Assembly (NCBI GenBank): GCA_937991945.1
Contig: CALKLO010000031.1
Location: 124,001-188,000, forward strand
DNA length: 64,000 bases
From: an uncultured Granulosicoccus sp.
GTDB lineage: Bacteria > Pseudomonadota > Gammaproteobacteria > Granulosicoccales > Granulosicoccaceae
Reading direction: 5' to 3'
In this document: piece by piece, positions 40,425 through 44,561 of the stretch
How positions within the stretch are numbered: the stretch's first letter is position 1
Layout: each line of letters opens with the position of its first letter
The notes under the pieces: generated by a model
Databases searched by the model: none
Told to the model about the DNA's origin: nothing
The model's input: the letters and a program-made list of their open reading frames with translations, nothing else
Position numbers and translations under genes: made by a program

Positions 40425-40738
40425 GCGTGAAAGTAACTCTGTATTGAAAACTGTATACGTGAACCGTGCAAAAACTGTTCACTATTAAGCGGTTAACATC
40501 AAACCGGTAGGAGTTTTAGACGATCGATGCGTACTACTAAACATTTTAGCGGAATATCAGGATTCGACAGAACTACACCGGCTCCAATGCTTGAATCTTA
40601 CCCCCAGCTAAGAGTCAAAAACCCCATGAGTGCATTTCACACCTCTCACCCGTCGTTTCGTCGCAAATAGCAGGATTTCGTTCCCCGCCGGTCGTAAATT
40701 GATTGTGCACCTTACGTAAACCTTATGGGAACACACTG
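40425..40738. other. 314-bp intergenic region between prlC and the DUF2141 gene
   Basis: Divergent genes flank it, so it should contain two promoters. I could not fix a convincing -35/-10 pair; TTGATT near 40700 is the best -35-like hexamer. A 47-codon rightward frame at 40527-40670 lacks a properly spaced ribosome site and is not called. Confidence 0.5.
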
Positions 40739-41161
40739 ATGAAGCACATATTCTTAAGCACAACTGTTGCGGTTGGAACGCTACTTTTCTCAGGGCTCGC
40801 CACGGCGGGCACGCTTACCCTTAAGTTGACGGACCTAGAAGTCAACAATGGCGATATTCGAATAGCTGTTTACGATAGTGAAGACACATTCAGCAAAAAG
40901 CCTGCTCACGTGCTGGGAGCAGCATCAACAACTGAGAGTGTCACTGTCACCTTAAATGACTTACCAGCGGGTGAATATGCTGTGATGTTGTATCAAGACA
41001 GCAACGGCAATGAAGATCTCGATTCGAACTTGTTAGGCATACCCACGGAACCTTGGGGAGCTTCGTTAAACGGCACTCAAGTTTTTGGCCCACCAAAGTG
41101 GAAGCATGTGATGTTTGTCGTCCCAGAAGAAGGCACTCAAATCACCATTGCTTTGCGATAG
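40739..41161 (+). CDS. Exported DUF2141 protein
   Basis: The 140-residue protein begins with a clear Sec signal peptide (charged MKH, hydrophobic core, cleavage likely after ATA near residue 23). The mature part is a DUF2141 domain: GDIRIAVYDSEDTF near the start, LPAGEYAVMLYQDSNGNEDLDSNLLGIPTEPW broken by its hallmark DxNxNxxLDxxxxGxPxE pattern, and GPPKW near the end. DUF2141 proteins are periplasmic or envelope beta-proteins of unknown function. I chose the ATG at 40739 because it begins the signal peptide; an upstream start would bury it. The carotenoid oxygenase gene follows 14 bases after its stop. Confidence 0.88.
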   Translation: MKHIFLSTTVAVGTLLFSGLATAGTLTLKLTDLEVNNGDIRIAVYDSEDTFSKKPAHVLGAASTTESVTVTLNDLPAGEYAVMLYQDSNGNEDLDSNLLGIPTEPWGASLNGTQVFGPPKWKHVMFVVPEEGTQITIALR

Positions 41162-41175
41162 CCGGACTACTCACT

Positions 41176-42708
41176 ATGAATCGTCGGGATATTTTAAAGT
41201 CAGCAGGACTACTAGGTTTGAACCTAGGGATGGGTTCAAGCATGAGCACCTTCGCCGCTAGCCTTCAACAACCTGCAGTGGCAACTCACTCAACCGAGCC
41301 TAGTAACGCATTTAGCAACAGCTTTTTATCAGTACCGGAGTCGTACGGACCTACCCAAGTCGCATTCGACCGACCATTGCCTAAGGCACTAGAGGGCACG
41401 CTTTACCGAAACGGCCCCGCTAGAATGCATCGGGGTGAAACCCACTATCACCATTGGTTTGATGGCGACGGCATGATCCACGCCTTTCACCTTCACAACG
41501 ATTCGATGACTCATAACGCATCGATGATACGAACGGATAAATACCGTGAAGAAGAACAAGCGGGTAAATTTCTAAGGGACGGTTTCGGTACGCATTTCGA
41601 TAATGGACTCTCTGTCTTGAAGCCCGATGACTTAAACGTAGCCAACATATCAGTCTTGCCTTTGGGCGATGAGTTGCTGGCTTTGTGGGAGGCAGGCTCA
41701 GCGTGGAGAGTGGACCCTGATACGCTAGAAACCCTCGGTAGGAAAGTGTTCTCCGCGCAAACCGATGGCGTGTCCTTTTCAGCTCATCCGCGTGTTGACC
41801 CTGATGGGCACGTTTGGAATTTTGGCTATTTAACCGGTGCCAGCAAACTGGTGATCTATGACATCAACCCTAATGGGGCCTTAAATCGCACACAAGTCAT
41901 TGATGCCGAACACACCAATATGGTTCATGATTTTGCTGTCACTGAACACTATTTGATTTTCGTCCTAATGCCCGTCACCTTCGATAGTCAAAAGACAGGT
42001 GCGTTCTCTGACCGGCTGGGTTGGGACGATGAAAGCGCCGTTGATGTTCTGGTTATCGATAAGGCCACGCTAAACGTCCAACAACGCTTTGAGCTACCTG
42101 CATTTTTCGCCTTCCATTTCGGCAACGCGTGGGAAGACGGTAAGCAGGTTCGCATTGAGGTCGCTACATCAGAACCGTTAGGCGAATTCAACACTGTGAT
42201 AAAACAAACAATGAAAGGCCACTTGCCAAGCCAGGCACAAGTGCAGTCACGTGATCACACTCAAACCATGGAAATCGTTCTTGATCTTGCCTCAAAACGA
42301 GCACGAACCGAAATCATGCCGTTTGGTCGAGCAGATTTCCCAAGCTTTGATAATCGCTTTGCTGGATACAAAACCCAATCACTCATAATGATGACCCGGG
42401 GATCAAGTATGCCAACAGATGTTTTCGGATTCAATCAAGTGTCTCGATTCGACCGAAAGCGTGATCGTATCGTTCAATGGGACTATGGCGATGAATACAT
42501 CGCGGAAGAACATATCTTTGTTCCAAAGCCAAATGCGAAGGAAGGTGATGGCTGGTTAGTAGGTACCGCCTACGATTGGAAAAATGCCAACACTTCATTG
42601 TCCGTTTTCGACACGGGTTCTTTAGGCGAAGGCCCTGTGGCAGTCTGCACACTACCGTATCACTTACCGTTGGGATTACATGGGAAATTCGTTGGAAACC
42701 ATACGTAA
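41176..42708 (+). CDS. Carotenoid oxygenase family protein with Tat-type signal peptide
   Basis: The 510-residue protein is a carotenoid/stilbene cleavage oxygenase relative, a seven-bladed propeller holding Fe(II) by four His. The likely ligands are H204 (SAHPRVD), H251 (VHDFAVT), H314 (FHFGNAW) and H502 (GLHGKFV). LEGTLYRNGPA and HHWFDGDGMIHAF near the start are family-typical. The N-terminus MNRRDILKSAGLLGLNLG with a following hydrophobic stretch ending near AASL looks like a twin-arginine export signal, so the enzyme may act in the periplasm. Substrate unknown; no carotenoid synthesis genes are nearby. Its 3' end overlaps the start of the LytS-type kinase by 29 bases. Confidence 0.9.
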   Translation: MNRRDILKSAGLLGLNLGMGSSMSTFAASLQQPAVATHSTEPSNAFSNSFLSVPESYGPTQVAFDRPLPKALEGTLYRNGPARMHRGETHYHHWFDGDGMIHAFHLHNDSMTHNASMIRTDKYREEEQAGKFLRDGFGTHFDNGLSVLKPDDLNVANISVLPLGDELLALWEAGSAWRVDPDTLETLGRKVFSAQTDGVSFSAHPRVDPDGHVWNFGYLTGASKLVIYDINPNGALNRTQVIDAEHTNMVHDFAVTEHYLIFVLMPVTFDSQKTGAFSDRLGWDDESAVDVLVIDKATLNVQQRFELPAFFAFHFGNAWEDGKQVRIEVATSEPLGEFNTVIKQTMKGHLPSQAQVQSRDHTQTMEIVLDLASKRARTEIMPFGRADFPSFDNRFAGYKTQSLIMMTRGSSMPTDVFGFNQVSRFDRKRDRIVQWDYGDEYIAEEHIFVPKPNAKEGDGWLVGTAYDWKNANTSLSVFDTGSLGEGPVAVCTLPYHLPLGLHGKFVGNHT

Positions 42709-43750
42709 TACATCGCACAAACAACGCCAGAACAAGGGAATCTATTCCTCACACTCGGCGTTTGTTCTGGTCATTAACGCGTTGGTTTGTACAGCCATCG
42801 CGTTGTTTCTATGGCTGGCGATACCCACCTACCAAGAGCAAAGCTTCTGGAGCATATGGGTTTACGCCCAATGTATCGGGCAGAGCATATGCGCTATGTT
42901 GCTCATCTGGTCTCACTACTGTAATAGCCGACCGAAGCTGTCGTTACTGGTACGCGTGTGCGTATTTGCAGCCATTGTCGTTATAGCCTTTGTTTTCGGC
43001 ACAACGCTCGGTAGTGCAATCAATGGTCATCCAGTAAAAATCGTTCTCACAGAATCCGTTTTTCTGATCTCTTTTGCTGTGTCTGTGTTGATGGCGGCGG
43101 TATCTACCTGGTTCTATGAGACACGCGTGAAAGTGGCCACACTCCAGCTTCAAGCCAGCGAAGCTCAATTGGCCATGCTCAAAGCTCAGATAGAGCCACA
43201 CATGTTGTTCAACACACTGGCGAACCTTCGTGTACTGATAACTAAGAACCCCGAGGAAGCCCAAGCACTACTAGATCAACTTATCGATTTTCTTCGAGCG
43301 ACCCTCGATGCTTCCCGTAATTCCAACGGTACTGTCGGCGAAGAGTTCGAATTGCTGCAAAATTATCTCTCTCTCATGAAGATACGATTTGGAGAAAGAC
43401 TCAATTACACGCTAAACCTTCCAGACGAACTGTCTCACGTCAGACTCCCTACCCTGCTCTTACAACCCATTGTGGAAAACGCAATAAAGCACGGTATTGA
43501 GCCCGTTGCATCACCGGAGAGCATTCGTATTACTGCCGATCAATCAAACAATAACGTGATCATCACGGTTGAAAATACGGGGACAAACATGGATACACCA
43601 GTATCAAGCGTCGGCTTTGGTGTGAAAAGCGTCCGTGATCGTTTGAAAGAGCGCTTCGCTGGACAGGCAACCATTACCTATCTCTCCCCTCTGTCGCCTC
43701 TCAACAGCGGCACATTGGTAACAATCACACTGCCCATTAATTATGACTGA
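42680..43750 (+). CDS. LytS-type membrane sensor histidine kinase
   Basis: The 356-residue kinase has four membrane segments (about 27-48, 56-77, 91-111, 123-145) with very short loops, so it has no large sensor domain. A short coiled coil (148-168) follows, then a His_kinase domain with phospho-acceptor H174 in IEPHMLFNTLANLR (relatives usually have NPHFLFNTL). A HATPase domain has its N-box in LQPIVENAIKHGI near 261-273 and VGFGVKSVRDRL near 311-322. The ATG at 42680 lies inside the carotenoid oxygenase gene, so translation is probably coupled. The response regulator gene overlaps its end by eight bases. Confidence 0.9.
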   Translation: MGNSLETIRNTSHKQRQNKGIYSSHSAFVLVINALVCTAIALFLWLAIPTYQEQSFWSIWVYAQCIGQSICAMLLIWSHYCNSRPKLSLLVRVCVFAAIVVIAFVFGTTLGSAINGHPVKIVLTESVFLISFAVSVLMAAVSTWFYETRVKVATLQLQASEAQLAMLKAQIEPHMLFNTLANLRVLITKNPEEAQALLDQLIDFLRATLDASRNSNGTVGEEFELLQNYLSLMKIRFGERLNYTLNLPDELSHVRLPTLLLQPIVENAIKHGIEPVASPESIRITADQSNNNVIITVENTGTNMDTPVSSVGFGVKSVRDRLKERFAGQATITYLSPLSPLNSGTLVTITLPINYD

Positions 43751-44561
43751 GCTCTCTCTGCCAGCTCCCAACGTATTGTTGGCGGACGATGAACCTCTTC
43801 TATTGGAGGCTATTGAATCTGAGTTATCGAGTGCGTGGCCAGAGGCTACCGTGCTCAGTCGCTGCCGATCTGGATTAGACGCTATTGAGGCTTTGCAAAC
43901 ACTGCCTATTGATATTGCGTTTCTGGATATTCAAATGCCAGAGGCTAACGGGTTGGAAGTCGTACAAACCGTTATTGAGGAATGGCCTGAGGAGGCACAT
44001 CGCCCTATGCCATTGTTTGTCTTTGTAACGGCCTATACCGAACACGCGATTGACGCATTCAAACTAGCAGCGGTGGATTACATCGTAAAACCTATTACAG
44101 CCAAAAGAATGGCAGACACGGTTGAACGACTGAAACATCATCAGAACACTAGAGCACTGGCTAATGCACCAGAGGAACTCAACCAACAGATAGTCAATTT
44201 ATTGACCAATACTCCCAACAAGACAACTCACGTAGAGAAGCTTCAAACAGTGAGAGCCAGTGTTGGTGAACAGGTGTATTTGATACCAATTGAGGATGTC
44301 ATTCTGTTTGAAGCATCCGATAAATACATTGAGGTTCACACAGCTTCAAAGTCTGTTGTGATCAGAGAGTCTTTGCGCAATTTATTACCGCAGTTAGACC
44401 CGACACAATTTACCCAAATTCACCGGAAGTCCATCGTGAACCTGCGCAAAGTGAATGCCGCTGTCAGAGAGAACAACGGGAAGATGAAACTCAATTTACA
44501 CGAGTCGTCCCTGACCCCAGTGGTAAGTCGTTTATACCGGCATTTGTTTCAAGCGCAGTAA
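43743..44561 (+). CDS. LytTR-family response regulator
   Basis: The 272-residue regulator has an N-terminal receiver (acidic pair in LLADDEP at 12-18, phospho-acceptor D62 in FLDIQMP, conserved Lys116 in VDYIVKPI). Its C-terminal LytTR DNA-binding domain (about 170-270) includes FEASDKYIEVHT, RESLRNLLPQL and IHRKSIVNL. It should be phosphorylated by the overlapping LytS-type kinase and bind direct-repeat promoters. Target genes are unknown; the upstream DUF2141 and carotenoid oxygenase genes on the same strand are candidates. Confidence 0.95.
   Translation: MTELSLPAPNVLLADDEPLLLEAIESELSSAWPEATVLSRCRSGLDAIEALQTLPIDIAFLDIQMPEANGLEVVQTVIEEWPEEAHRPMPLFVFVTAYTEHAIDAFKLAAVDYIVKPITAKRMADTVERLKHHQNTRALANAPEELNQQIVNLLTNTPNKTTHVEKLQTVRASVGEQVYLIPIEDVILFEASDKYIEVHTASKSVVIRESLRNLLPQLDPTQFTQIHRKSIVNLRKVNAAVRENNGKMKLNLHESSLTPVVSRLYRHLFQAQ

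Follow-up and report, generated by a model that had tools for sequence, protein, structure and literature searches.

Here we describe a compact four-gene locus in a 64,000-nucleotide stretch of DNA (hereafter the window) from an uncultured Granulosicoccus sp. (contig CALKLO010000031.1). The genes all run rightward (+ strand) and occupy positions 40739 to 44561. They encode a DUF2141 protein (140 aa, 40739..41161), a carotenoid cleavage oxygenase of the RPE65/CCO family (510 aa, 41176..42708), a LytS-type sensor histidine kinase (356 aa, 42680..43750) and a LytTR response regulator comprising a receiver and a LytTR DNA-binding domain (272 aa, 43743..44561). Three imperfect direct repeats, which form a putative LytTR operator, lie ahead of the first gene on the same strand (40633..40683). 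Only 14 bp separate the DUF2141 and oxygenase genes, the kinase gene starts 29 bp inside the oxygenase gene, and the regulator gene starts 8 bp inside the kinase gene. A preliminary description had proposed this tight rightward packing, including the kinase start within the oxygenase gene, and both the coordinates and the Pfam assignments bear it out.

All four proteins exceed the Pfam cut-offs by far. For DUF2141 the match is to PF09912 (E 3e-28; 98.3 bits versus a cut-off of 24.4), and for the oxygenase to PF03055 (E 1e-105; 355 bits versus 27), with profile positions 21-468 of 469 covered. The kinase matches PF06580 (E 2e-23) and PF02518, and the regulator PF00072 and PF04397 (E 9e-21). The host genome (3.83 Mb, 97% complete, Granulosicoccus family) contains one gene of the oxygenase family, one DUF2141 gene and three LytTR genes. 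The closest match to the locus in the named genome collection is a Granulosicoccus metagenome-assembled genome, at 65% in the oxygenase.

A conserved module with two regulator architectures

To follow the locus across genomes, we compared 80 related loci from a public genome collection (80 kept of 91). A DUF2141 gene lies upstream of the oxygenase gene on the same strand in 79 of them, and the one exception begins at the edge of its contig. In 35 of the 80, the oxygenase is followed by LytS and/or LytTR genes, with LytS and LytTR in tandem in 30 of these; among the others, one contig (L007) ends before LytTR and one locus (L017) has no LytS match. A further 24 loci lack such a pair and have instead a LytTR gene on the opposite strand, divergent and upstream of DUF2141 in 22 cases and convergent and downstream in two Marinicella loci. 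All but one of these 24 genes (the exception being that of L051) belong to a single family of 215-327 aa. Three or four membrane helices were predicted in each of the eight family members scanned, and a Pfam scan of one member identified a LytTR domain (E 7e-16). Within the host's own family, DUF2141 and LytS accompany all 8 full-length copies; LytTR is present in 7, and the contig of the eighth ends there. Farther afield, a culturable Pseudoalteromonas luteoviolacea strain has the module, as does an Undibacterium strain in which no regulator is adjacent.

For controls, we used a class sample of 370 genomes, host included, drawn without regard to the locus. DUF2141 occurs in 42 of these genomes and the oxygenase family in 28. 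Flanks of about 5 kb on each side, where contigs allow, were taken for 43 of the 45 DUF2141 places and for all 27 oxygenase places without DUF2141. By profiles of our own making, LytTR genes adjoin 5 of the 6 oxygenase–DUF2141 pairs (window included), none of the 27 other oxygenases and just 1 of the 38 DUF2141 genes that lack an oxygenase. As three of the six pairs belong to a single family, these are not independent, and the neighborhoods of the 38 DUF2141 genes without an oxygenase were judged with four profiles only. The neighborhood survey upholds a conserved linkage of the oxygenase to a LytTR-type regulator, gene order being kept far more than in the controls.

Clustering of neighboring genes in the 80 loci revealed no further family common across clades among the 15 clusters looked at, several of which resemble shadow frames of high-GC genes. 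Two more local associations were seen. In L006, L007, L012, L018, L019 and L041, a small membrane protein resembling a 2TM domain is encoded directly after the oxygenase, preceding the kinase where a kinase was seen (Pfam 24.3 bits versus a cut-off of 24.8, for the one protein scanned). In L031, L036, L040, L048, L063 and L081 (Pseudomonadales and unclassified Gammaproteobacteria), a conserved gene of 553-556 aa borders the locus upstream on the opposite strand, and has what we take to be the look of a GMC-type oxidoreductase.

The oxygenase carries a predicted export signal and an intact iron site

Enzymes of the RPE65/CCO family oxidatively cleave a double bond of a carotenoid or stilbene. 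The window enzyme begins with MNRRDILKSAGLLGLNLGMGSS..., a signal of the twin-arginine translocation (Tat) type spanning about residues 1-28 (longer N-terminal stretch, MNRRDILKSAGLLGLNLGMGSSMSTFAAS). To see how general this is, we assembled a larger set of oxygenases. Of 95 related genomes, 12 gave any oxygenase match: seven further full-length relatives, the host itself, one distant sequence and three fragmentary ones. Together with the host and the 80 loci, six of these relatives give a set of 87 (the remaining relative shares a contig with one of the 80); one sequence cut by a contig end was dropped, leaving 86 with an N-terminus. Twin arginines followed by a hydrophobic stretch were found in 86/86 of these, window included, as called by a script with a hydropathy rule rather than by a signal-peptide predictor. 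One caveat here is that one of the six search peptides used to collect the 80 loci contains the Tat motif, and hence the sample of loci may lean towards it.

The class sample provides a comparison. There, the motif is present in all six oxygenases with an adjacent DUF2141 gene (window included). Of the 27 oxygenases lacking one, 8 have an arginine pair in the N-terminal stretch that was scanned, and in 3 of the 27 (L252, L257 and L266) a Tat-like signal was recognized by eye; L269, L272 and L276 are broken or cut, so that their N-termini could not be judged. The genes in L269 (G096) and L272 (G386) both appear broken, one with an internal TAA and one in two pieces. As judged from these N-termini, the Tat-type signal is a property of the module's oxygenase clade and not of the whole oxygenase family. 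The preliminary description had claimed both that the oxygenase carries an export signal and that export would be unusual for such enzymes, and the two claims agree with these counts. It had staked its interpretation on an N-terminus directing export and on kinase genes kept beside the oxygenase elsewhere; as far as sequence goes, both were found.

In a quick tree, the module oxygenases form one group (91 rows; Shimodaira–Hasegawa-like approximate likelihood ratio support 99), apart from 20 control oxygenases. This tree omits L276 and six of the 26 controls L250-L275, and gave long-branch warnings, mostly among the controls. Across the 86 sequences, H204, H251 and H314 are invariant and H502 is found in 85, with one gap; we take these four to be the iron-holding histidines of the family, and the predicted iron site is therefore intact. 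E172 and E445 are also invariant. At position 387 the window has Asp, whereas 79/86 sequences have Glu; presumably this is the third second-sphere position, E172 and E445 being the others.

Two solved relatives are tied as best matches, 7qr6 ('Dioxygenase', 153.7 bits) and the apocarotenoid oxygenase (ACO) of Synechocystis (PDB 2biw, 152.3 bits). The window enzyme is of the same family as ACO, aligns with it over residues 50-505, and shares the family histidines and a W-E motif. It differs from ACO in having a Tat-type signal, an operon with a regulator and Asp at position 387, and the match stands at E 1.7e-43 only.

DUF2141 is predicted to be a secreted beta sandwich

The DUF2141 protein has a Sec-looking signal (about residues 1-23, by eye) and an AlphaFold2 model (predicted local distance difference test, pLDDT, 89) with an Ig/FN3-like beta sandwich. 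An alignment of 70 sequences shows a loop, DxNxNGxLDxNxxGIPTE, in which D87, N97, P102 and E104 are invariant; that the DxNxNG part binds Ca2+ would be a guess from its sequence. A Foldseek search with the model gave no match at E < 0.001. The best structural match is a secretin pilot protein (Z 8.7, root-mean-square deviation (rmsd) 2.3, 89 residues), with many FN3/Ig-like rows just below, and a sequence search for a solved structure found none (best E 0.8).

Earlier papers report that in Sphingomonadales a DUF2141 gene neighbors crtG, which encodes a carotenoid hydroxylase, and leave the role of DUF2141 open (PMC5989583, PMC9241875). Three papers of the open-licence literature searched mention DUF2141, PMC3597751 having it as a table row. 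In both settings DUF2141 is linked to a carotenoid-modifying enzyme. The settings differ in that crtG, as those papers present it, is a biosynthetic hydroxylase in carotenoid producers, whereas the window enzyme is of the cleavage type, bears an export signal and comes from a host that gave no phytoene synthase match. Because a second link to a carotenoid-type enzyme is found here, the data hint that some DUF2141 proteins handle carotenoids.

Among DUF2141 loci without an oxygenase, two in the host genus were noted. G026, a genus member that lacks the oxygenase, has a solitary DUF2141 gene with a DUF3179 gene behind it (L110 3924-5395). G015, which carries the module, has a second DUF2141-LytS-LytTR set with no oxygenase and an MMPL-type exporter gene alongside (L111 4971-7523), preceded by direct repeats that look similar by eye.

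Kinase and regulator

The AlphaFold2 model of the kinase (pLDDT 83) has four N-terminal helices joined by short loops and no extracytoplasmic domain; three of these helices were also scored as membrane segments in a hydropathy scan. H174, within IEPHMLFNTL, and N267 are conserved in an alignment of 29 sequences. The cytoplasmic part is most similar to GanS (Z 19.2, rmsd 5.0, 185 residues), and rows of this structural comparison span mainly residues 168-356. With its PF06580 domain and a partner that joins a receiver to a LytTR domain, the kinase forms a LytS/LytTR two-component pair. Against curated equivalogs the regulator falls short of both BtsR (the best, 121 of 246 bits) and LytR (100 of 375 bits). 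Judging from the model, the likeliest cue for the kinase would be lipid-soluble or membrane-borne, and a cytoplasmic cue may also be envisaged.

When the membrane part of LytS was compared with that of the one-component LytTR protein of the sister clade, the profiles matched with a probability of 74 (E 2.7e-5, 111 columns), membrane helices being present in both. We regard this as no more than suggestive of homology.

Direct repeats upstream of DUF2141

The repeats in the window start at 40633 (CATTTCACA), 40654 (CGTTTCGTC) and 40674 (GATTTCGTT), 21 and 20 bp apart, and lie about 105 bp before the DUF2141 start. The experimentally mapped LytTR site of CoxC likewise comprises three direct repeats, spaced 18-21 bp (PMC11347149). 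By this spacing the repeats can be regarded as a putative LytTR operator. A two-repeat pattern built on the window site has a single match in the window, where 0.03 would be expected. Similar repeats stand upstream of many, not all, relatives: TTCGTCGCA is found in 15/31 two-component loci (0.05 expected) and ATTTCACGA in 15/23 one-component loci (0.15 expected).

To avoid dependence on a motif, we also took every distance between 12 and 40 in turn and counted the loci in which an 11-base stretch recurs at that distance. The counts peak at 20 bp, with 16/32 two-component, 11/18 regulator-less and 5/24 one-component regions. Any other distance gives at most 2, 2 and 5, respectively; in the one-component group, a distance of 40 bp also scores 5. 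Paired half-sites matching at least 14 of 16 positions were found in 14/32 two-component, 4/18 regulator-less and 4/24 one-component regions, against 0.2 expected each, with a half-site consensus that was derived from the same sequences as those scored. In these repeat tests close relatives are counted repeatedly, and 12 of the 86 loci, in which the script found no start, are not included. Because the repeats are present in the regulator-less clade, our results suggest that a LytTR protein acts from elsewhere in those genomes.

A general repeat-finding scan, at its thresholds, did not list the operator repeats of the window. No further regulon targets were found in the host genome with one strict repeat pattern, which gave three matches versus four for a reversed control; the two matches besides the module lie inside long reading frames. 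The idea in the preliminary description of an envelope system with a regulator of its own is well supported as gene organization.

Insertion site and mobility

The locus is flanked on the left by prlC and ubiD and on the right by gyrB, recF, dnaN and dnaA (names read from the frames). Both in the host and in G015, the module sits between gyrB and prlC. The gyrB locus was examined in thirteen module-free genomes of the same genus, and in nine of these prlC comes next after gyrB, its match beginning about 60 to 770 bp behind. In two (G012 and G014) no prlC was found within the fetched 1.5 kb, and two further gyrB loci are cut off. The oxygenase is found in 3/27 genomes of the host genus. Given these empty gyrB–prlC sites and this patchy occurrence, the module can be called accessory; it behaves as a single unit, and gain cannot be distinguished from loss with certainty. 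A DUF2141–oxygenase pair is also carried by a mobilizable plasmid (NZ_CP123587.1) of the alphaproteobacterium Alisedimentitalea scapharcae (L279), with IS5 and IS30 transposase genes before the pair and a LytTR gene 1.8 kb behind it.

Carotenoid synthesis in genomes that carry the module

If carotenoids were made by the cell itself, a phytoene synthase would be expected, and we therefore searched with the PF00494 profile. No match was found in the three carriers of the genus, namely the host, G015 and G022 (97, 99 and 82% complete). Matches of 130 bits or more were found in 9/24 same-genus non-carriers. Within the genus, carriers and genomes with strong matches do not overlap (0/3 versus 9/24), numbers too small for a rule. 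Given the lack of a match in the host, any carotenoid would have to come from outside. Across 38 carriers, PF00494 matches are absent in 22, weak only (24-61 bits) in 4 and strong in 12. In 10 of the 12, two strong matches stand in tandem, which we take to be the hopanoid genes hpnC/hpnD. Four Massilia genomes have a third strong match and may synthesize carotenoids. The rhodopsin profile PF01036 matched 0/38 carriers and 0/47 relatives, a result that counts for little as no control genome matched either.

Discussion

On balance, and with slightly more confidence than doubt, we read the locus as a self-contained, LytTR-controlled module that acts outside the cytoplasm to cleave a carotenoid or similar conjugated polyene of external origin. 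The four genes would constitute a laterally acquired cassette for this oxidative cleavage. The oxygenase would fold with its iron in the cytoplasm and then be exported through Tat. Beside it in the periplasm, DUF2141 would most likely bind or deliver the hydrophobic substrate or product. The membrane-helix bundle of LytS, the sole possible sensor outside the cytoplasmic part, would detect a lipid-soluble cue, be it the substrate, a cleavage product or a resulting change in the membrane. LytS would then phosphorylate the LytTR regulator, which would control its own operon, whether positively or negatively, by binding the direct repeats (20-21 bp apart) that precede DUF2141. In another clade, a membrane-anchored LytTR protein would combine sensing and DNA binding in one polypeptide. 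Of the earlier suggestion, sensing or processing at the envelope, the sequence data support the export signal and the conserved LytTR linkage; apocarotenoid sensing by the kinase would be a further step, and stilbene as a substrate fares less well, on the active-site residues considered below.

Several observations weigh against this interpretation. The oxygenase has low identity to any solved relative and misses every NCBIfam equivalog cut-off by a wide margin. Control by an adjacent LytTR protein is not universal: 15 of the 80 loci, chiefly in Undibacterium and other Burkholderiales, show no LytTR gene where the flanks suffice (3 kb or more downstream, 2.5 kb or more upstream, 6 of the 80 loci being too short to tell); L040 and L063 have LytS downstream, with the LytTR gene found 5.4 kb away; the LytTR of L037 is a short weak fragment only; and a Variovorax megaplasmid copy has DUF2141 and neither LytS nor LytTR within 6 kb. 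Operator-like repeats are not visible in several relatives, including L084 and L085 of the host's family, and no sigma-70-like site was picked up close to the repeats by a generic promoter scan. In the class sample, 39/45 DUF2141 places have no adjacent oxygenase, and DUF2141 is therefore not tied to carotenoid enzymes alone. The second DUF2141-LytS-LytTR set of G015 has no oxygenase either, and so the regulator's cue need not be an oxygenase product. Finally, the 12/38 carriers with strong PF00494 matches may contain internal isoprenoid substrates.

This last point bears on the alternative that survives best, which we nevertheless regard as unlikely. Here the exported oxygenase would cleave a polyene or isoprenoid of the cell's own envelope (an aryl polyene pigment, a quinone or a hopanoid-linked lipid), and LytS/LytTR would monitor the state of the membrane. 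Such a role is compatible with the Tat-type signal and with a kinase whose sensor part, in the model, consists of membrane helices only; 12 of the 38 carriers have strong matches to squalene/phytoene synthase-type genes, and those without phytoene synthase could hold other polyenes. However, membrane upkeep accounts less well for the patchy spread within the genus and the single insertion site than does an acquired trait, be it catabolic or sensory. Moreover, no further gene family is common across clades in the 80 loci, where selected clusters were inspected by eye and polyene or quinone clusters were not searched for in the carriers.

Could the enzyme instead be a periplasmic dioxygenase of the lignostilbene or isoeugenol type, acting on phenolics from plants? 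Such enzymes (NOV1 and LsdA among them) belong to the same superfamily and score similarly against the window enzyme. Lignostilbene dioxygenase is indeed the best NCBIfam name by score, and 7qr6, the top PDB match tied with ACO, is what we take to be a NOV1-type stilbene enzyme. However, the NCBIfam score is 212.6 bits against a curated cut-off of 800. In addition, the residue before E172 is a tryptophan (W171) in 86/86 sequences, as it is in ACO, whereas 7qr6 has a lysine there (K-E), and F137 of the window aligns with a tyrosine of 7qr6. We take this lysine and tyrosine to be residues that hold the phenol of stilbenes; no paper on the role of the lysine was among the matches listed. Because an invariant tryptophan stands where the stilbene-type relative has lysine, a stilbene substrate appears less likely from the alignment, and we consider this alternative improbable.

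A further possibility, and in our view a very improbable one, is that LytS/LytTR and DUF2141 form a separate signaling unit in which the oxygenase is a passenger gene. The oxygenase-free set in G015, with its similar upstream repeats, is what such a unit would look like, and some oxygenase–DUF2141 pairs have no nearby regulator. The class sample argues otherwise, since LytTR stands by DUF2141 so much more often with an oxygenase than without one (5/6 versus 1/38), and the oxygenase pair is accompanied by regulators of two distinct architectures. Least probable of all is a role in turning carotenoids of the cell itself into retinal or some other apocarotenoid, for instance to supply a rhodopsin: the family does include retinal-forming enzymes (PMC5133782), but this idea is largely refuted for the present host by the absence of PF00494 matches in all three same-genus carriers versus 9/24 non-carriers, the missing rhodopsins adding little weight.

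The reading of the locus as an exported polyene-cleaving module can be set against known LytTR circuits. In joining a LytS-type kinase to a LytTR regulator, the window resembles the AlgZ/AlgR and BtsS/BtsR two-component types, and the one-component version in the sister clade, being membrane-anchored, recalls CoxC. CoxC, an MHYT-LytTR protein, also has three direct repeats at two-helical-turn spacing (PMC11347149). It differs in that the one sister-clade protein scanned has LytTR only and no MHYT domain. The present circuit is further set apart by a regulator whose nearest curated relative, BtsR, is matched at only half the required score, and by its target, an oxygenase operon.

Searches of the open-licence literature found no joint mention of 'carotenoid oxygenase' and 'LytTR', and, among the matches listed, nothing of the kind for periplasmic or Tat-exported carotenoid cleavage or for an apocarotenoid with a two-component system. 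The main text of a review on carotenoid cleavage oxygenases makes no mention of periplasm, signal peptide or secreted (PMC5133782). The preliminary description knew of no described system of this kind, and we found no published one in the literature searched, an absence that is not proof. Each part belongs to a known family; it is the predicted assembly, an oxygenase with an export signal joined to DUF2141 and LytTR control in two architectures, that we did not find there. Beyond that first description, we add that the module is widespread, that a one-component regulator replaces the pair in a sister clade, and that operator-like repeats and an insertion site can be recognized.

What, then, might the module be for? 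Granulosicoccus is abundant on kelp (PMC9238374). As a tentative extension, which we hold to be less likely than not, bacteria that make no carotenoids might use the module as an apocarotenoid perception system, to perceive carotenoid-rich organisms such as algae, plants and phototrophs: the pigment would be cleaved in the periplasm, DUF2141 would act as a carrier, and the apocarotenoid would be sensed in the membrane through LytS or the one-component LytTR protein.

More generally, many bacteria seem able, by way of a small transferable cassette, to place a carotenoid-cleaving enzyme beyond the cytoplasm and to keep it under a membrane-linked switch of its own. A widespread group of carotenoid oxygenases thereby gains a likely location outside the cytoplasm, a partner in DUF2141, and a candidate circuit for their control together with the site on the DNA that it is predicted to use. 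A domain of unknown function and an uncharacterized enzyme clade become one testable system, which raises the question of whether bacteria sense and use algal and plant carotenoids at their own surface.

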